This document shows, piece by piece, positions 4,404-12,705 of a stretch of 53,709 nucleotides of DNA. A model generated the notes under the pieces. It was given only the letters and a program-made list of their open reading frames with translations. It ran no database searches and was not told where the DNA came from. The position numbers and the translations under genes are program-made. The DNA comes from Deltaproteobacteria bacterium. GTDB lineage: Bacteria; Desulfobacterota; Desulfobulbia; Desulfobulbales; SURF-16. Position 1 is the first letter of the stretch, and each line of letters opens with the position of its first letter. The DNA lies in NCBI GenBank assembly GCA_016219175.1, contig JACRCD010000009.1:1-53709 (forward strand), read 5' to 3'.

Positions 4404-4528
4404 AAATATACCGTTTATCACGTCTCGAAACGTCCGTCATTCCGGGATGTTTTTAGCCGAAATCCAGGTCCTCACTGGATGCCAGCTAAAAGCATGCTGG
4501 CATGACGACATAGATAAACGGTATTTTT
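4404..4528. repeat. Hairpin repeat downstream of the Flx-Hdr operon
   Basis: Terminal inverted repeats AAATATACCGTTTATC / GATAAACGGTATTTTT enclose a core with a second inverted pair (GTCATTCCGGGATG and CATGCTGGCATGAC). It lies 16 bp beyond the flxA stop codon, so besides being a mobile-type repeat it could act as a transcript end or mRNA-stabilising hairpin. Confidence 0.65.
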
Positions 4529-4543
4529 ATAACTTTTAAGTCC

Positions 4544-5377
4544 TTAATATTCCACCGGCAGCTGCCGCACCTGGGTGCGGGTAAAGACCGGGCCGTCCTT
4601 GCAGACCAGGGTGGGGCCGACGTTGCAGTGGCAGCACACCCCTTCGCCGCATTTCATGCGGTTTTCCAGGGAGAGGTAGACCTGGTCGTCGGTCCAGCCG
4701 ATCTTTTCCAGGGGCGGCATGGTGAATTTGATCATGATGGGCGGGCCGCAGATTAAGGCCACGCTGTTTTCAGGCGACGGCGCCACCTGGCCGGCGATGG
4801 TGGGTACGAAGCCGACCAGACCATCCCAGCCCGGAGCCTCCCGGTCGATGGTGACATGCAGGTCCAGGTCGCCCCGCGCGGCCCATTGCTTGAGTTCGTT
4901 CTGGTAGAGCAGCATGCCGGGTGTTCTGGCCCCGTAGATAAAGGTGATCTTGCCGTAATCAGCCCGGTGTTCCAGCAGATAAATGAGGGTGGCCCGCAGG
5001 GTGGTGACGGCGAAGCCGCCGGCGATGATGACGATATTCTTGCCCTTCATGTCGGTAGCCAGGGGAAAGCCGTTGCCCAGGGGGCCGCGCACGCCCATGC
5101 GCTCGCCCGTTTTCATCTGGTGCAGGGCGGTGGTCACCTTGCCGGCCCGGTTGACGGTGAAGAGCAGGTGGCCATCCTCGGTGGGTGAGGAGGCGATGCC
5201 GATGGGGATCTCGCCCTGACCCGCCAGGGACAGCATGGCGAACTGGCCGGGCACGTGGCGCCAAGCCTTTTTCTGCTGCTCGTTTTCAAAGACGAGCTTG
5301 AAGGACTTCAGGTTGCCGTCTTCCGTTTCAACCGTAATGTCGTCGATGCGGACGGGGTATGGCAAATAGGATATCAT
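4544..5377 (-). CDS. flxA: FlxA-like FAD/NAD(H)-binding oxidoreductase
   Basis: 277 residues, ferredoxin-NADP reductase superfamily, like the gamma subunit of sulfhydrogenase. Predicted as the NAD(H) port of the FlxABCD-HdrABC complex. An N-terminal flavin-binding beta-barrel carries VRGPLGNGFPL. The NAD domain carries VIIAGGFAVTTLRA and the CGPPIMI motif. The C-terminus has a [2Fe-2S]-type cysteine set, CGEGVCCHC followed by LVCKDG, as in dihydroorotate dehydrogenase B electron-transfer subunits. It is the last gene of the operon, 3 bp after flxB. Flx-Hdr complexes are known from Desulfovibrio as NADH dehydrogenase/heterodisulfide reductase systems; that role is inferred here from gene order and domain content. 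Confidence 0.85.
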   Translation of the reverse strand: MISYLPYPVRIDDITVETEDGNLKSFKLVFENEQQKKAWRHVPGQFAMLSLAGQGEIPIGIASSPTEDGHLLFTVNRAGKVTTALHQMKTGERMGVRGPLGNGFPLATDMKGKNIVIIAGGFAVTTLRATLIYLLEHRADYGKITFIYGARTPGMLLYQNELKQWAARGDLDLHVTIDREAPGWDGLVGFVPTIAGQVAPSPENSVALICGPPIMIKFTMPPLEKIGWTDDQVYLSLENRMKCGEGVCCHCNVGPTLVCKDGPVFTRTQVRQLPVEY

Positions 5378-5380
5378 ATC

Positions 5381-6418
5381 TTACTCCACCGTCAGGAGGT
5401 CGGCCATGACCTCGCGGATATCAATGTTGACCGGACAATCCTGGACGCAGCGGCCGCAGCCCACGCAGGAAAAGGGGCCGAAACGTTCCGGGAAATATTT
5501 CAGTTTGTGCATGAAGCGGTTTCTGGTGCGCTGCAGCTTGCGGCCCCGGGGATTATGGCCCGTGGTGTGCAAACTGTAGAGCGGGAACATGCAGGAATCC
5601 CAGTATCGTATGCGCCGGCCGCTGCCCTTGACCACCTCGTCCTGGATGTCGAAACAGTAGCAGGTGGGACAGATGAAGGTGCAGGCCCCGCAGTTGATGC
5701 AGGAGTCGCCCAGGGGCTGCCACAGGGGGGCTTCGTAAAGTTTGTTCAGATCCTTGCCTTGCATGGTGTTCAGGATGGCCGTGTCCTTGCCGGGTCTTTC
5801 CTTGCGCCGGTCAGCAAGGGCGGTGATATCGCTGTTTGCGGCCGGGGCCAGGTTGAGGCCCGCCATCAGCTCTTCGCCCTTGGGGGTGAGGATTTCGGCG
5901 AGATAGCCGTTTTCCGCGCGGGAGAAGGCGATGTCAAGGCCGTCGCTGTCAAGGGGCGAGCCGCCCATCTGTTCGCAAAAACAGGTGGACAGGGATTCGT
6001 CGCAGGTGAAGCCGACAAAAACGGTGCGTTCCAGATTGGCCTGATAAAAGGGGTCTTCCCGGAAGGGCAGGTTGTTTAACAGGACGCTTCTGGCGTCGCA
6101 GGGCCGCAAACCGACCACGACCTGACTTTCCGTGAGTTTGGCGGGCTCTTTCATCAGCCCCCGGTCCGGATCACCGGTTTTCAAACTGTAGGTCATCATG
6201 GTTTCCGGCTGGGGAAAGAGAAAGGTCTTGACCGAGCCGGCTGCCGGGCCGATGGGCACGGTAAGCGGCGAAGCGCCCTCTGCTTTCCGCCAGCCCGGTC
6301 CGTAGTCGGGCTGGGCCTGCTGCTGTCTGCCCACGGCGGGCCGGTACACCTTGCGGCTTTGGCTCCACAACGCCACCATGTTGTCCAGTTCGGCTTGACT
6401 GATCTTGAAAACTTTCAC
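5381..6418 (-). CDS. flxB: FlxB-like 4Fe-4S electron-transfer protein
   Basis: 345 residues with a GTG start 2 bp after the flxC stop codon, showing tight coupling. The family is the hydrogenase beta-subunit/anaerobic sulfite reductase A group. The C-terminal third carries two ferredoxin-like cluster motifs, CINCGACTFICPTCYC and CVGCGRCVQDCP. The N-terminal two thirds hold the partner-binding domain with conserved VVGLRPCDARSV and VFVGFTCDESLSTCFC stretches. It should relay electrons between the flavin subunit and the FlxC/FlxD-Hdr part. The FlxB versus FlxC naming follows gene order and could be swapped. Confidence 0.75.
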   Translation of the reverse strand: MKVFKISQAELDNMVALWSQSRKVYRPAVGRQQQAQPDYGPGWRKAEGASPLTVPIGPAAGSVKTFLFPQPETMMTYSLKTGDPDRGLMKEPAKLTESQVVVGLRPCDARSVLLNNLPFREDPFYQANLERTVFVGFTCDESLSTCFCEQMGGSPLDSDGLDIAFSRAENGYLAEILTPKGEELMAGLNLAPAANSDITALADRRKERPGKDTAILNTMQGKDLNKLYEAPLWQPLGDSCINCGACTFICPTCYCFDIQDEVVKGSGRRIRYWDSCMFPLYSLHTTGHNPRGRKLQRTRNRFMHKLKYFPERFGPFSCVGCGRCVQDCPVNIDIREVMADLLTVE

Positions 6419-6420
6419 GG

Positions 6421-7467
6421 TTACTCGCCCTCCTTTCCAGCCCCGGCTTCGGTGACGATAAATTTCTGGGGATCGTTTATCTTATAGGTGGTCAGGGGCA
6501 GGGGAGAGTCGGGCTGCATGCCTGCTTCAATGCCATACAGATTCAGCACATCCTTGTTGAGCTTCTTGGTCAGCAGACGCATGTTGATGCCCATGGGGCA
6601 GACCGACTCGCAGGCGCCGCAGTCGGTGCAGCGGCCGGCGCAGTGGTAGGCCCGCATGACATGAAAAAGCCCGGTGTCCGTGGCGTCGAGGCTTTTGCCC
6701 ACCCACTGCGGTTTGGCGTCGTCCACAAAACAGGTGGGGCAGTAGCAGAGCGGGCAGGCGTTGCGGCAGGCATAGCAGCGGATGCAGGTGGCGAATTCCG
6801 AGGTGAACCAACCCCAGCGCTCGGCGGCGGATTTTGCTTCCAGCTCGTCCACCTGTTTGAAGGGATTGGGGTTCTTGCGGTCGGAAACCGGTTCGCCGAT
6901 GCGCACATCAACGAGGAGCGGATCAGGATGGGTGCAGGTCTGGCAGTTGTCGCGCACCACGCTCCAGCGGTTGATCTTCTCCTCGAAACCGCTGCCCCTG
7001 ACGATGAGATCGTGGTCAAGCTCTTCCACGGCCAGGATCTCCCGGCCGGCAAAGAGGGCCTCCACCTTGCGGCGGCTGACCATGCCGCGGCTGCCCACCC
7101 CCATGACCACCACGCGCTCGCGCTCCACCTGATGTTCCTGGATCTGCACGACGATATTGCGCGACCAGCAGCCGGTGGCCATGATCGCCACCTTGGGCAG
7201 CGGACCTTCCGGTTTGGGATCACGGGGACCGCGCGGCGGCTCCACGGATTTCAGCACCTCGGGCAGGAAATTGGCCAGGTTCAGCACGCAGAAGGTGTTC
7301 CAGAGCAGTTTGCCGCAATCCTCGGGCCTGCGGACCACCAGCGGCTTGACCGTCATCGGCAGGCTGCCCGAGGCATAACCGATAACCGCGGCGACCGTGC
7401 CTTCGGCCAGAAGTTTTTTGGCCTGGGCCCTGATTTCTTCGCTTATTTTTTCGTTTATAGTGGGCAT
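6421..7467 (-). CDS. flxC: FlxC-like 4Fe-4S protein
   Basis: 348 residues. Two C-terminal cluster motifs are present, CIRCYACRNACPLCYCPTC and CTDCGACESVCPMGINMR. They sit behind an N-terminal domain related to the F420-hydrogenase/dehydrogenase beta group (VKPLVVRRPEDCGKLLWN; VAIMATGCWSRNIVVQ; VVMGVGSRGMV). A further CQTCTHPDP lies mid-protein. It is the second Fe-S relay subunit of the complex. The ATG start is at 7467, and the 190-bp gap to flxD holds direct repeats. Confidence 0.75.
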   Translation of the reverse strand: MPTINEKISEEIRAQAKKLLAEGTVAAVIGYASGSLPMTVKPLVVRRPEDCGKLLWNTFCVLNLANFLPEVLKSVEPPRGPRDPKPEGPLPKVAIMATGCWSRNIVVQIQEHQVERERVVVMGVGSRGMVSRRKVEALFAGREILAVEELDHDLIVRGSGFEEKINRWSVVRDNCQTCTHPDPLLVDVRIGEPVSDRKNPNPFKQVDELEAKSAAERWGWFTSEFATCIRCYACRNACPLCYCPTCFVDDAKPQWVGKSLDATDTGLFHVMRAYHCAGRCTDCGACESVCPMGINMRLLTKKLNKDVLNLYGIEAGMQPDSPLPLTTYKINDPQKFIVTEAGAGKEGE

Positions 7468-7657: not shown

Positions 7658-8122
7658 TTAAGCCGCCTGCATAGCCTCGATTTTTTTGACCAGACGGGTT
7701 GCCGGTCCCAGCTCTTTGACCTTTTCGGTCACGGTTCGCACCACCTCGGCAAACTGCTCGCCCTCAGCGGCCGATACCCAGGAAAAGTTGACCCGGCCCG
7801 GCTCGATGCCGATGAAATCGAGCAGGTTGCCGAGCAGGGCAAAGCGCCTTCTGGCAAAGTAGTTGCCGCTGATATAGTGGCAGTCGCCCGGATGGCAGCC
7901 GGAAACCAGGATACCGTCCGCCCCTGATTTAAGGGCCGACAGGATCATGTTTTCGCTCACCCGGCCGGAACATGGCACCCGGACGATCCTGATGTTGGGC
8001 GGATACTGGAAACGGCTCACCCCGGCCAGGTCCGCGCCGGCATAACTGCACCAGTTGCACAGAAAAGCGATGATCTTCGGTTCCCAGTTGGTCTGACTTG
8101 TCTCATTGGTCTTACTGGTCAT
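7658..8122 (-). CDS. flxD: FlxD (MvhD-like) iron-sulfur protein
   Basis: 154 residues. This is an MvhD/FlxD-type [2Fe-2S] protein that bridges an electron-input module to HdrA. The family core starts WEPKIIAFLCNWCSYAGADL; conserved cysteines follow in VRVPCSGRV and VSGCHPGDCHYISGNYFARRR. The first 12 residues (MTSKTNETSQTN) are not family-like: they are encoded by a 9-bp tandem repeat array, and the ATG itself lies in repeat unit 4. The same frame upstream hits TAG inside the array. No clear Shine-Dalgarno sequence precedes the ATG, so the translation start is odd. Confidence 0.85.
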   Translation of the reverse strand: MTSKTNETSQTNWEPKIIAFLCNWCSYAGADLAGVSRFQYPPNIRIVRVPCSGRVSENMILSALKSGADGILVSGCHPGDCHYISGNYFARRRFALLGNLLDFIGIEPGRVNFSWVSAAEGEQFAEVVRTVTEKVKELGPATRLVKKIEAMQAA

Positions 8123-8195
8123 ATTGGTCTCATTGGTCCTATTGGTCTCATTGGTCCTATTGGTCTAACTGGCCTTACTGGCCTTACTGGTCCGA
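8088..8195. repeat. 9-bp tandem repeat array covering the flxD start codon
   Basis: Twelve units of a degenerate 9-mer, plus-strand consensus YTGGTCYYA (e.g. TTGGTCTCA, TTGGTCCTA, CTGGCCTTA). Units 1-4 code the FlxD N-terminus (units of the form xTN on the minus strand); the rest fill the gap to hdrA. Because the unit is three codons long, copy-number changes keep the frame but alter the start context. Confidence 0.85.
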
Positions 8196-8213: not shown

Positions 8214-11200
8214 CTATTCAAAAGCTGCATCCACCGTGGCCATGATCTGCTCGTTGCCGATATTTTTGAGCGTCACGGCGTCGGAGCGGCAGCCGGCCAC
8301 GCAGGCCCCGCATCCCTTGCACATACTGGTGTTGACCACGGAGATACCGTTGTCGTCCAGGCTCACCGCATTATAGGCGCAGACCTCGGTGCACAGCCCG
8401 CAACCCGTGCATTTGGCCGCAGTGACCACGGCGGTGACGCTTTCCGCCGGCACCGCGTCGTGGGCCAGAATGATGGAGGCCCGGGCCGCGGCGGCCTTGG
8501 CCTGGGCAATGGATTCTTCCATGGATTTCGGATAATGGCAGAGTCCGGCCAAAAACACCCCTTCTGTTGCGAAATCCACCGGACGCAGTTTCATGTGGGC
8601 CTCCATCAGGAAGCCCTGGCTGTCAATGGCGCACTTGAAGAACTTGGCCAGGCTGGTGCTGCTCTGTCTGCGGGGCTGGATGGCGGTGGCCAGCACCAGC
8701 ATGTCCGGCTGAATCACGACATGGGCGTCAATGATCGGGTCGTGGCATTTGATAATGAGCCGGCCCTCTTTCTCGCTGACCTGGGGCAGCCGCTCCAGAT
8801 CGTAGCGGATGAAGACGACGCCCTTGGCCCGCGCTTCCTGGTAGATCCGTTCGCGCTGGCCGTAGGTGCGCACATCCCGGTAGAGCATGAAGACGTCCAT
8901 GTCCGGGTTCATTTCTTTAAGCTTGACGGCGGAATCTATGGCATGGGTGCAACAGACCCGGCTGCAGTAAGGCCTTTCGGCAATGCGCGAGCCGACACAG
9001 TGGATGAAAACAGCCTGTTTGATGTTTTTCAGGGTGGGGTCATCATCAATGAATTTTTTATCGAGTTCCAGCAGGGTGTGGACATTGGGGTTCACGCCAT
9101 GGAGAAACCGCCATTGGCCTTCGGGTTTGTAGGGTTCCCCGCCCACGGCCATCACGGTCACGCCGTGCTCGAAGGTGCGGCCGTCGGAAAAGGTGGTGGA
9201 GAACTTGCCCACTGAACCCGAGGCCTCCTTTATTTCCGTATTGTATTTAACGGTGATGTGCGGATGGCTTGCGACCCTGGCCGTCAGATCGTTGATAAAG
9301 GGCAGAAACTCCACGCCTTTCCAGTTGCGGAAAACCTTGCGGCCGTTGCCGCCCAGCATGTCGCTCTGCTCAATGAGGGTCACCGGATAACCCTGCTCGG
9401 CAAAGGCCAGGGCGGAAGTCATGCCGGAAACCCCGCCGCCGATAACCAGGGCAGCCTTGGTCACCGCTACCGTGTTGTAGGGCAGGGCGCCTTCGCCCCG
9501 CACCCTGGCCACGGCCATGCGCACCAGGTCCTTGGCCTTGGTCGTGGCTTTTTCCGGCTCGCGCTGATGCACCCAGGAGTCCTGGTCCCTGATGTTGGCC
9601 ATCTCAAAGAGAAACTTGTTGAGGCCCGCGTCGCGCAAGGTCTCCTGAAACAGGGGCTCATGGGTGCGGGGTGAGCACGAGGCCACCACCACCCGGTTGA
9701 GGTCCTGTTCCTTGATGATGCTGATCATCTGATTGATGGTGTCCTGGGAACAGGTGAACAGGTTGGCCTGGGAAAAGACCACATCGGGCAGGGTGCCGGC
9801 ATAGGCGGAAACCGCCGCCACATCCACCACGCTTGCGATATTGATGCCGCAATGGCAGACAAAGACGCCGATGCGCGGCGCCTGGGCGTAAATATTCTGC
9901 TCGGCCGGGTAGACTTTTTTGCTCGTTTCCGTCCAGCGCACCGGGGCCAGGATACGGCTCGCCTCGGCGGCGGCGGCGCTGGCCTCCACCACCGACTGGG
10001 GTATGTCCTTGGGTTCGGAGGCGGCACCGCATACGTAAATGCCGGGCCGGCTGGTGGCCACCGGGTTGAAGCTGTCCGTCCTGACGAAGTTGTCCGCGTC
10101 AAGCTCAAGGCCAAGCATGGAGGCCAGTTCAATCGTGTGCCGGTAGGGTTCGAGGCCGGTGGACAGGACAACCATGTCGAATTCCTCAAAGTTGACCTTG
10201 CCCTGCTCATTCACATAGCGGATCTTCAGGTTGCCCTGGTTGTCAGGGGAGGGAATGATGGAGTGCACCCGGGCCCTGTGGAAATGGACGCCTTCCTCCC
10301 TGGCCCGGGTGTAATAATTTTCAAAGCCCTTGCCGTGGGTGCGCATATCCATATAAAAGATGGACGGTTCAAAATCTCCATGGGAATGTTCCTTGGCGAT
10401 CACGGCCTGCTTTAAGGCGAACATGCAGCAGATCGAGGAGCAGTAGGGGTGGCCGGCCCGGTTGATATCACGGGAGCCGACGCACTGCAGCCAGGCTATT
10501 TTTTTTGGTTCCTTGCCGTCGGAGGGCCTTTCCAGATGGCCCATGCAGGGGCCCGACGGGCTGAGAAAACGCTCGAACTCCATGGTGGTGACCACGTTGG
10601 GCAGGCGGCCGTAGCCGGTAAAGTCAAGCGGGGTAGGATTAAAGCGGGAAAAGCCGGGGGCCAGTACCACGGAGCCCACTTCCAGCACATGATCCCTGGC
10701 GGTGTCGTCAAAATTGATGGCCCCGGCCGGGCATTCCTTGGCGCAGACGCCACAGCGGCCCGGCTTGTTGATCCAGATGCAGTGGGCCGGATCAAGGGCG
10801 TATTTCAGGGGCACCGCCTGGGGGTAGCTGAGATAGGCCGCCTTTCTCTTGCCGATGCCCATGTTGAAATCGTTGGTGACCTTTTTCGGGCATTTTTCCG
10901 CGCACAGGCCGCAGGCGATGCACTTGGTGGGATCCACGTAGCGGGGACGCTGGCGCACCACGGCCTTGAAATTGCCCGGTTCCCCTTCCAGGGAGACCAG
11001 ATCGGACAGGGTGAGGAGGTTGATGTTGAGATGCCTGCCGCATTCCACCAGCTTGGGAGAGAGAATGCAGGCGGAACAATCATTGGTGGGGAAGGTTTTG
11101 TCCAGCTGGGACATCTTGCCGCCGATTGCCGTTGTCCTCTCCACCAGGTGCACGAGAAACCCGCTGTTTGCCAGGTCGAGTGCAGCCTGCACCCCTGAAA

Positions 11201-11237
11201 TTCCGCCGCCGACGACTAATACCGATCCTTTGGGCAT
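8214..11237 (-). CDS. hdrA: Heterodisulfide reductase subunit A, long two-lobe form
   Basis: 1007 residues, much longer than the roughly 650 of classical HdrA. The first Rossmann/FAD lobe starts VLVVGGGISGVQAAL (7-20). It includes the conserved CSAC...C (54, 57, 66) and two ferredoxin clusters (C106/109/112/116 and C153/162/165/169). A second complete lobe begins ALVIGGGVSGMTSA (596-609). Both lobes carry the HdrA signature VGSR...PYCSxxCC (near 253 and again in lobe 2), both with cysteine rather than Sec. Two more 4Fe-4S motifs end the protein (C943/946/949/953 and C973/976/979/983). HdrA is the flavin-bifurcating core that splits electron pairs between low-potential ferredoxin and the HdrB site; here it would receive electrons from NADH through Flx. 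Confidence 0.92.
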   Translation of the reverse strand: MPKGSVLVVGGGISGVQAALDLANSGFLVHLVERTTAIGGKMSQLDKTFPTNDCSACILSPKLVECGRHLNINLLTLSDLVSLEGEPGNFKAVVRQRPRYVDPTKCIACGLCAEKCPKKVTNDFNMGIGKRKAAYLSYPQAVPLKYALDPAHCIWINKPGRCGVCAKECPAGAINFDDTARDHVLEVGSVVLAPGFSRFNPTPLDFTGYGRLPNVVTTMEFERFLSPSGPCMGHLERPSDGKEPKKIAWLQCVGSRDINRAGHPYCSSICCMFALKQAVIAKEHSHGDFEPSIFYMDMRTHGKGFENYYTRAREEGVHFHRARVHSIIPSPDNQGNLKIRYVNEQGKVNFEEFDMVVLSTGLEPYRHTIELASMLGLELDADNFVRTDSFNPVATSRPGIYVCGAASEPKDIPQSVVEASAAAAEASRILAPVRWTETSKKVYPAEQNIYAQAPRIGVFVCHCGINIASVVDVAAVSAYAGTLPDVVFSQANLFTCSQDTINQMISIIKEQDLNRVVVASCSPRTHEPLFQETLRDAGLNKFLFEMANIRDQDSWVHQREPEKATTKAKDLVRMAVARVRGEGALPYNTVAVTKAALVIGGGVSGMTSALAFAEQGYPVTLIEQSDMLGGNGRKVFRNWKGVEFLPFINDLTARVASHPHITVKYNTEIKEASGSVGKFSTTFSDGRTFEHGVTVMAVGGEPYKPEGQWRFLHGVNPNVHTLLELDKKFIDDDPTLKNIKQAVFIHCVGSRIAERPYCSRVCCTHAIDSAVKLKEMNPDMDVFMLYRDVRTYGQRERIYQEARAKGVVFIRYDLERLPQVSEKEGRLIIKCHDPIIDAHVVIQPDMLVLATAIQPRRQSSTSLAKFFKCAIDSQGFLMEAHMKLRPVDFATEGVFLAGLCHYPKSMEESIAQAKAAAARASIILAHDAVPAESVTAVVTAAKCTGCGLCTEVCAYNAVSLDDNGISVVNTSMCKGCGACVAGCRSDAVTLKNIGNEQIMATVDAAFE

Positions 11238-11262: not shown

Positions 11263-11430
11263 GTGTTCCAACGTTTCAGCGTTCAAGCGTTTCAGCGTTC
11301 CAACGTTTCAACGTTCCAGCGTTCCAACGTTTCAACGTTTCAACGTTCCAGCGTTTTAGCGTTCAAGCGTTTTAGCGTTCAAGCGTTTTAGCGTTCAAGC
11401 GTTTCAATGTTCCAACGTTCCTGTGTTTAA
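11263..11430. repeat. 8-bp tandem repeat array between hdrCB and hdrA
   Basis: About 21 units of the 8-mer RCGTTYYA (ACGTTTCA, GCGTTCAA, GCGTTTTA and relatives) fill most of the 247-bp gap. Degenerate GCTGGAACG traces continue to about 11482. There is no spacer structure, so it is not a CRISPR. Replication slippage or a repeat-derived linker is the simplest explanation. Confidence 0.85.
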
Positions 11431-11484: not shown

Positions 11485-12705
11485 TTACCGCACCATGGCC
11501 TTGACAATCCAGTTCCACAGATGGGTGGCCTGCCATTTGCCGCCGTAATGGGCGGCCAGATCCTTGATCTGGGTATGGCAGTTATGGCAGGGGGTTATGA
11601 CCACGTCCGCGCCGGTGGCGTGGAGCTGCTCGAATTTCATCAGCCCGTGTTTTCTGCGGTTTTCGGTAAAGCCGGCCTGCAGTGCGCCGCCACCGCCGCC
11701 GCAGCAGTAGTTGTTGGATTTGTTGGGCCAGACCTCAACGAAGTTCTCCTCGCCGCAGACCTGCTTGATGACGAAACGCAGGTCGTCCGCCACCGGGTCG
11801 CCGAGACCCTGGCGCACCAGCTTGCAGGGATCCTGGACCGTGAACTTCAACCCTTCGGTGTTCCAGGCGGGGCTGACCTTGAGCCGGCCTTCCCTGATCC
11901 ACTGGGCATAGAGGCTGATGATGCTGACCACATTGAAATTGTGGGGGATTTTGAATCTTTTCAACCCTTCCAGGGTTGAGAAAAGCATGTGGCCTCACTC
12001 GGTGTTTATGTAGGTCGGGCACCCCAGGGCGTCCACCGTTTCCGCCTGCTTGCGCGTCACGTATTCCCAGTCCTTGGGGTCGCCGGAAAAGAGGCAGTAG
12101 TTGGCCCCGTCCCACCATTCGGAGGAATAGGTCCAGTCAATGCCCACCGCGTGCAGGATTTTCCACAGGAAAACCATCTCCTCCGGCTCCACCGTCGGCT
12201 CCTTGGCGTTCTGGTTCAGGTAGAACTGGGCGCCGACCTTGTCGATGGGCGCGGTGAGATCCGTCCATTCCGGTTCGTTGGCCTTGGTCTCTTCCAGGAC
12301 ATCGCCGACAACCCAGACGAAATCCGCGTTGGGGATGCCGGTGGAGTTGCTTTCCTTCTGGAGTTCGCAGGATTTCTGCAGGTTTTTCGGGCGCAGTTCC
12401 TTGGGGCGCATGCCCTTCAGTTCATAGACGAAACGGCCGACATTGATGCCCATGGGACAGGCGTATTCGCAGCGCTGGCAGATGGAACAGGAGTAAAGCC
12501 AGTTGGTGTTTCTGAGCAGATCGTCCTGGCCCAAGGCGAGGTAGCGTATGAATTTGCGGGGATCCATGCCTTCGATGTCGCTGGCCGGGCAGCCGCTGGC
12601 GCAGAGGCCGCAGGTGAGGCAATAATCGATTCTGGCATTGGGCAGCTTTTCCTGGAAAAGCTTCTTCAGGTCAGCCCGTAAAGGTGAAAGATCAATTTCC
12701 GTCAT
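11485..12705 (-). CDS. HdrC-HdrB fusion (HdrD/DsrK-like) selenoprotein, UGA at codon 237
   Basis: A single 406-residue reading frame if TGA at 11997-11995 is decoded as Sec; otherwise it splits into a 236-residue HdrC-like piece and an HdrB-like piece starting at 11988. The N-terminal HdrC part has two 4Fe-4S motifs (C29/32/35/39 and C73/76/79/83). The first CCG-like region reads SSEWWDGANYCLFSG ... LGCPTYINTE-Sec-GH. In DsrK/HmcF/HdrD relatives this is the conserved ECGH, so Sec replaces a cluster-site or catalytic cysteine. The second CCG domain is complete with cysteine (C294, NYCCGG 334-335, TPCHNC 373-376). The TGA is directly followed by GHMLFSTLEG with no ribosome-binding site for a separate gene. 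Start ATG 12705 (MTEIDLSPL) is preferred over the in-frame ATG at 12798, whose extra 31 residues are not family-like. It is the first gene of the Flx-Hdr operon and carries the substrate/disulfide-reducing site. Confidence 0.88.
11957..11997 (-). promoter_or_regulatory. Bacterial SECIS-like element of the HdrCB selenoprotein
   Basis: On the minus strand, TGA (11997-11995) is followed by a 7-bp stem CAACCCT (11978-11972) / AGGGTTG (11968-11962) closing the loop GGA. A CTTTT/AAAAG extension lies below a 2-nt bulge, giving 12 pairs in all. The loop begins with G, 23 nt after the UGA. This is the most stable of the three SECIS-like hairpins in the window. Confidence 0.8.

Follow-up and report, generated by a model that had tools for sequence, protein, structure and literature searches.

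Does the TGA between an hdrC-like and an hdrB-like reading frame separate two genes, or does it stand for selenocysteine (Sec) within a single one? The question arises in a 53,709-nucleotide stretch of the genome of a Deltaproteobacteria bacterium (contig JACRCD010000009.1; henceforth 'the window'), for which a mechanical list of open reading frames gave a TTG-started frame that ends at the TGA and a separate frame of 167 residues. The frame reads ...GCPTYINTE-TGA-GHMLFSTLEGLK... and contains no second stop as far as position 11485; when the TGA is read as Sec, it yields 406 residues with one TGA only, at codon 237. An earlier note on this DNA had proposed that both pieces form one selenoprotein gene, and this is borne out by the exchange of Sec and Cys, a covarying SECIS, the purifying selection acting before and after the TGA and the full Sec machinery of the genome.

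An internal TGA in a single reading frame

The features that bear on the reading of the TGA are the following:

11485..12705, (-) strand: hdrCB(Sec), 406 codons with TGA at codon 237; HdrC-like ferredoxin domain with a degenerate and a complete CCG domain (HdrD/DsrK-like architecture)
11995..11997, (-) strand: in-frame TGA, Sec237 within an E-U-G-H motif; TGC or TGT stands here in some relatives
11986..11988, (-) strand: ATG that starts the 'hdrB-like' frame, six bases after the TGA; start not conserved
11962..11978, (-) strand: SECIS upper stem, 7 pairs with loop GGA; nucleotides 20-26 pair with 30-36, counted from the T of the TGA

We compared the codon under residue 237 in 111 rows (the matches from 58 genomes together with the best 80 of 215 genome_contigs stretches encoding a relative, some rows being one genome under two names) and found TGA in 100, TGC in 10 and TGT in one. 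The joint had been described as the ECGH motif of DsrK-, HmcF- and HdrD-type proteins, and this held for the relatives that have ECGH with TGC or TGT and for the DsrK of the same genome, which reads ...ILGGECGHMW... with Cys and whose ECGH falls at the E-U-G-H site when aligned; HmcF was scored by profile only. A nonsense mutation, a pseudogene or an assembly error has the stop codon itself in its favour and nothing else, and we consider such an origin vanishingly improbable: the identical TGA recurs across many assemblies, and both halves are under purifying selection, with dN/dS of 0.06-0.12 in the 200 codons before the TGA and 0.06-0.14 in the 160 codons after it (6 usable pairs of 9; the N-terminal ratios of L038 and L040 were dropped because an inserted codon had probably shifted them, and L044 because dS was saturated). 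TGA conservation and purifying selection together rule out a pseudogene or assembly error.

Downstream of the TGA, all 7 pairs of the hairpin are intact in 79 of 83 distinct Sec genes; three keep six pairs and one keeps three, apparently in a shifted register. Randomisation of synonymous codons according to each gene's own usage gives an expectation of 2.0 such genes among the 83, and no other register between -60 and +99 nt has more than two sequences with 7 pairs. None of the 10 distinct Cys genes has the complete hairpin; the 86%-identical Cys gene of L042 keeps six pairs and its loop begins with C, the first base of the 3-nt loop being G in all 83 distinct Sec sequences. The arms covary, with ACC...GGG-TTG in 27, GTC...GGA-CTG in 49 and TTC...GGA-ATG in 2 sequences (together 78 of 83), and the switch between GGG-TTG and GGA-CTG, which is synonymous (Gly-Leu), is matched by ACC or GTC on the opposite arm. 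A later sample gave 7 pairs in 27 of 28 Sec loci and six in the other, while its two Cys loci keep four and three; eight of the 28 repeat 48-nt fragments of the first set, which leaves the hairpin in 19 of 20 new loci. A scan of the window at the Rfam gathering cut-offs returned zero matches. The hairpin had been noted as a 12-bp form with loop GGA starting directly after the TGA: the 7-bp upper stem and the GGA loop stand, whereas the five outer pairs, set apart by a 2-nt bulge and missing from several close relatives, are not conserved (the minimum free energy fold here has an 8-bp stem), and the stem begins 16 nt downstream of the TGA.

We also considered two genes, that is, a 236-residue HdrC-like protein and a 167-residue HdrB-like protein made from the ATG after the TGA. 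The ATG is there, and contrary to the claim that it lacks a ribosome-binding site, GAGG sits 4 nt 5' of it; these bases belong to the codons of E-U-G-H. However, only 17 of the 83 distinct Sec genes have ATG at that codon as their first start, ATG, GTG and TTG are all absent from the next 20 codons in 47 of them, the Cys homologues are uninterrupted, and the hairpin is complete only where the codon is TGA. Two genes are thus exceedingly unlikely, and two independent ones are ruled out by the unconserved start; the view that the downstream piece is no separate gene stands.

The genome of origin (4.2 Mb in 97 contigs, 98.4% complete) contains tRNA-Sec, selB, selA and selD, each over its cut-off, and its selD itself carries one TGA. 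Overall, it is nearly certain that the locus is one gene with an internal UGA decoded as Sec, because of the TGA/Cys exchange, the conserved hairpin and the presence of selA, selB, selD and tRNA-Sec. We propose that UGA 237 would be decoded through the downstream 7-bp SECIS hairpin; selenium incorporation into hdrCB(Sec), like its function, is a prediction from sequence.

Selenocysteine and cysteine among relatives

Among the 58 genomes searched (including the genome of origin, which yields a single match), 15 had matches at 1e-40, and their 26 matches comprised 20 with exactly one TGA and 6 without. A wider draw comprised 296 genomes from the phylum, of which 122 had a match at 1e-60 (six candidates were scored per genome); by hand count, 98 of the 150 matches listed have one TGA and 52 have none, stop-free rows being commonest among the lower-scoring matches. 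Thirty loci taken from this draw had TGA in 28 cases and TGC in two. A tree of 103 distinct proteins (93 Sec, 10 Cys), built from the 111 rows minus identical and short ones, needs 4 label changes, and 4 are also forced by its starred branches; it is rooted at the midpoint and several long branches meet in it. In this sample the Cys rows are nested inside Sec groups, and most changes are therefore read as Sec to Cys. This direction is a tentative reading for the sequences sampled, a third of the listed wider-sample rows being TGA-free.

SelB scored over its cut-off in 14 of the 15 genomes searched for it, the exception being G002, which is 88% complete, has a Sec gene and gave partial SelB matches only. 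Since SelB is also present in G051, G050 and G041, which have a Cys codon, and in G296, which has a match without a stop, loss of the machinery does not explain the exchange in the Cys genomes examined, and loss of Sec through loss of SelB is ruled out for them. As Cys forms persist in genomes with SelB, the fold does not depend on Sec, and neither, in L042, does the operon.

Three genomes of one genus (G001, G003 and G005) each have a Sec copy and a Cys paralogue of about 50% identity (L024, L025 and L026 with L010, L014 and L012), which makes them natural material for a selenium-switch test. Two Sec copies lie within a few kb of each other at one locus, L107:2803-3966 and 4442-5656, and likewise in L073, L095 and L052. 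Paralogue pairs of the former kind are what a dual output would call for, in which the full protein would be made when selenium is available and, when it is not, a 236-residue HdrC-like fragment would result and Cys paralogues would take over; replacement by a Cys paralogue was suggested for Desulfobacterium autotrophicum HRM2 by the authors of its genome paper (PMC2702500). We consider this improbable for the present gene, as its own genome yields only the one match at 1e-40.

Domains, predicted fold and the surroundings of residue 237

The N-terminal part of hdrCB(Sec) matches HdrC chains of solved complexes and its C-terminal part matches HdrB chains. The residues that carry the argument are listed here, with their conservation in 39 aligned rows:

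12457..12621, (-) strand: two [4Fe-4S] motifs, Cys29/32/35/39 and Cys73/76/79/83 (HdrC-like); the eight Cys are invariant in 39/39; Pfam Fer4_17/Fer4_8
12094..12096, (-) strand: Cys204 (NYCLF), candidate partner thiol of Sec237; in 30/30 NTE-type rows, absent in the 9 others
11989..11991, (-) strand: His239 of the UGH motif, predicted equivalent of EtfD His583 from the profile alignment to 9ojn_A; in 38/39 rows
11578..11826, (-) strand: C-terminal CCG motif, Cys294, Cys334-Cys335, Cys373 and Cys376; invariant in 39/39; Pfam CCG 5.2e-11

By homology, Cys294, 334, 335, 373 and 376 would be the ligands of a noncubane cluster. In NTE-type rows Cys204 occurs whether residue 237 is Sec or Cys. None of the Cys between Cys83 and residue 237 is invariant; Cys229 is present in 32 of the 39 rows and Cys204 and Cys113 in 30 each. 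The check by structure prediction that had been suggested gave a confident model (pLDDT 91.3 and pTM 0.90, from 39 aligned sequences), which we compared with solved structures by Foldseek and structure alignment. The best solved match was EtfD (9ojn; Z 26.9, rmsd 2.5 over 364 residues), followed by the LutA model 9a6l_A (21.0 over 226), HdrB chains (about 20 over 237) and 3kwl (20.0 over 314, rmsd 3.8). A sequence search for a solved DsrK structure, in which this genome's own DsrK served as the query, found none; the sole match was EtfD at 0.0027.

The HMMER profile alignment places E-U237-G-H239 over T-C581-P-H583 of EtfD, with spacings to the next ligand of 57 and 56 residues, respectively. 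Against HdrB it places residue 237 over Cys81, three residues off the EtfD register, which makes the HdrB register uncertain. We prefer the EtfD register because of the shared C-x-H motif and the spacing, and take EtfD Cys581 to correspond to the Cys78-type position of HdrB. In mycobacterial EtfD, five Cys together with His583 bind the noncubane cluster D2, and the ligands of the linear cluster D1 are Cys503, Cys538, Cys581 and Cys584 (PMC13083937). EtfD differs from hdrCB(Sec) in having a membrane domain and, in these four Cys, every ligand that a linear [3Fe-4S] cluster requires (PMC13083937). In hdrCB(Sec) and its relatives the four-Cys set was not found, residue 240 at the Cys584 place being Cys in none of the 39 rows and the Cys503 and Cys538 places being judged solely from the absence of invariant Cys. 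Nor were two complete CCG motifs found as in HdrB, the C-terminal set being the sole invariant one. We infer that there is a single noncubane cluster with His239 as its cap, and that Sec237 occupies the place of the second cluster of HdrB and EtfD.

Residue 237 might also be a structural or tuning ligand of the noncubane cluster, or of a remnant cluster with Cys204, and set its redox potential, the protein being a pure conduit of the kind proposed for EtfD. U237 aligns with the D1 ligand Cys581 and His239 with the D2 ligand His583, and Cys204 is a constant companion in NTE-type rows. The EtfD authors describe the His-capped noncubane cluster as non-catalytic (PMC13083937), which favours electron transfer over disulfide chemistry. 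On the other hand, the place of the D1 ligand Cys584 lacks Cys throughout, the region between Cys83 and residue 237 has no invariant Cys, and the 9 rows without Cys204 nevertheless keep Sec or Cys at 237. We regard a ligand role as a genuine possibility, albeit one that we would not bet on.

Operon, known family and proposed role

hdrCB(Sec) is the first gene of a cluster whose conserved order is hdrCB(Sec)-hdrA-flxD-flxC-flxB-flxA. The Flx names in the window are given by resemblance to the proteins of the literature and should be read as putative. Counts refer to 16 close loci (L035-L050, at least about 74% identical; the codon is TGA in 15 and Cys in L042):

8214..11237, (-) strand: hdrA, of 1007 aa and with two FAD modules, second gene of the operon; found after the Sec/Cys gene in 15/16
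7658..8122, (-) strand: flxD/mvhD-like; Pfam FlpD 3.3e-56; 13/16
6421..7467, (-) strand: flxC-like 4Fe-4S protein; 13/16
5381..6418, (-) strand: flxB-like (HydB/AsrA-related); 12/16
4544..5377, (-) strand: flxA-like FAD/NAD(P)H-binding reductase; 7/16

Where hdrA or flx genes are missing, they would lie at or past a contig end or the end of the fetched flank, except in L050, in which about 280 bases after flxB show no flxA match. All 16 loci have the fused hdrCB gene in place of separate hdrB and hdrC (L043 has lost its first codons at a contig end). Among relatives at a greater distance (L051-L114), hdrA and an mvhD-like gene are frequent neighbours; a tblastn search of these loci found no complete flx set. 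The spacers of the operon contain tandem repeats, with an 8/16-bp unit between hdrCB and hdrA (11265-11421) and one of 9 bp that spans the hdrA/flxD junction (8088-8193), where it overlaps the TSKTNETSQTN start of FlxD. Arrays of 7, 8 or 16 bp, some of other units, occur in the hdrCB-hdrA spacers of L035, L036, L037, L040, L042 and L047, and none were found in those of L046 and L048. Measured as the distance between tblastn matches, the hdrA-flxD spacer is long in L036, L037, L038 and L042 (about 0.6, 0.3, 1.3 and 0.9 kb) and about 20-110 bp in the others.

The kind of protein is already known, because a Sec family of UGH Fe-S oxidoreductases and Sec-containing HdrD/HdrF proteins are in print, and the novelty implied by the earlier note is to that extent withdrawn. 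The printed GlpC/UGH family has Fer4 and CCG domains, and hdrCB(Sec), a Fer4 and CCG protein with the UGH motif, belongs to it. A 2026 review lists it as 'Fe-S oxidoreductase-like protein, PTHR43551, UGH' and credits it to Kryukov and Gladyshev 2004 (PMC13188914), and a marine deltaproteobacterial genome paper also mentions a Sec Fe-S oxidoreductase (PMC8318568). The family has been described beside hdrA and frhD in some Deltaproteobacteria, in an operon glpC-hdrA-frhD-frhG-frhA (PMC13188914, PMC9312934, PMC1794560); it shares the UGH motif with Sec first, and its partner there is a hydrogenase, whereas here it is FlxABCD (NADH). The 2009 genome paper of D. autotrophicum HRM2 reports Sec in HdrD4 and HdrF2, likewise HdrC-HdrB fusions with predicted Sec, of which HdrF has transmembrane segments (PMC2702500).

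The DsrK encoded by this genome, which has both dsrA and dsrK, shows the ECGH motif and the C-terminal CCG domain to which hdrCB(Sec) corresponds, and there are partial profile matches to DsrK, HmcF and TmcB; the scores stayed far below the NCBIfam equivalog cut-offs (HmcF 177 of 750, TmcB 173 of 735 and DsrK 124 of 400 bits), and hdrCB(Sec) differs from all three in its hdrA and flx neighbours and in having Sec instead of Cys. With EtfD it shares, besides the closest fold, the C-x-H motif at the equivalent place. With HdrABC (5odc) and FlxABCD-HdrABC it has in common the HdrC- and HdrB-like domains and the HdrA and FlxABCD partners, flxABCD lying beside hdrA in the window and the close loci; HdrB, however, is a separate subunit with two noncubane clusters, whereas here the domains are fused and only the C-terminal CCG motif is complete. 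Among the literature matches listed (most subscription journals lying outside them), no title or abstract start dealt with Sec in a Flx-Hdr subunit or with the structural place of the UGH-family Sec, and a search for Sec together with DsrK, HmcF or TmcB likewise listed none on Sec in a Flx-Hdr subunit. Our additions are that the gene precedes hdrA-flxDCBA in close relatives, that its predicted fold matches EtfD and HdrB and, more conjecturally, that Sec stands in for one of the two noncubane clusters of HdrB.

Taken as a whole, the explanation we favour, and hold to be very probable, is that hdrCB(Sec) encodes a soluble HdrC-HdrB Sec fusion, the first gene product of a Flx-Hdr cluster, through which electrons would reach disulfide chemistry at Sec237. 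Where FlxABCD-HdrABC has HdrB and HdrC as separate subunits, the fusion would take their place. FlxABCD would oxidise NADH and electrons would bifurcate at HdrA, one branch going to ferredoxin and the other through the two HdrC-like ferredoxin clusters to the noncubane [4Fe-4S] cluster of Cys294/334/335/373/376 and His239. The Sec237 selenolate would form the end point and reduce a disulfide or persulfide substrate, e.g. a DsrC-type protein. The path from NADH through FlxABCD, HdrA and the clusters to Sec237 is reasonably likely; that Sec237 is a disulfide-facing nucleophile is plausible, if somewhat short of an even chance, and the disulfide or sulfonate chemistry that the earlier note ascribed to this residue is likewise conjectural.

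The usual DsrC has a C-terminal arm, unlike the two DsrC-like proteins of the genome of origin (L160:1459-1842, (+) strand, and L161:1438-1887, (-) strand; 63-65 bits), both of which end in ...EECC. A DsrC with a canonical score was not found in this assembly, whereas each of the 11 relatives searched has one (97-110 bits); the likely cause is an assembly gap. The missing DsrC counts against the simple reading of DsrC as the substrate, a reading modelled on Flx-Hdr, in which two NADH are reportedly oxidised and one ferredoxin and one DsrC reduced (PMC10553843).

A more specific and doubtful form of this proposal is that one noncubane cluster of HdrB has given way to a lone selenolate, that of Sec237, for which Cys204 would be the resolving thiol in NTE-type members. 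The active site would then be the His239-capped cluster facing the selenol, and it would cleave a disulfide or trisulfide of a protein as the last step of an NADH-driven bifurcating complex. If true, this would be a type of disulfide-reducing site unlike that of HdrB and unlike that of ferredoxin:thioredoxin reductase.

Plain calling of open reading frames splits hdrCB(Sec) in two and hides a subunit of a predicted electron-bifurcating complex of sulfur bacteria. Most of the relatives sampled have the Sec form. The natural Sec/Cys pairs, one of them 86% identical, provide material for studying the role of selenium in heterodisulfide-reductase-like enzymes. If our structural reading is right, selenium would be tied to the poorly understood hand-over of electrons from CCG-domain proteins such as DsrK to sulfur carriers.
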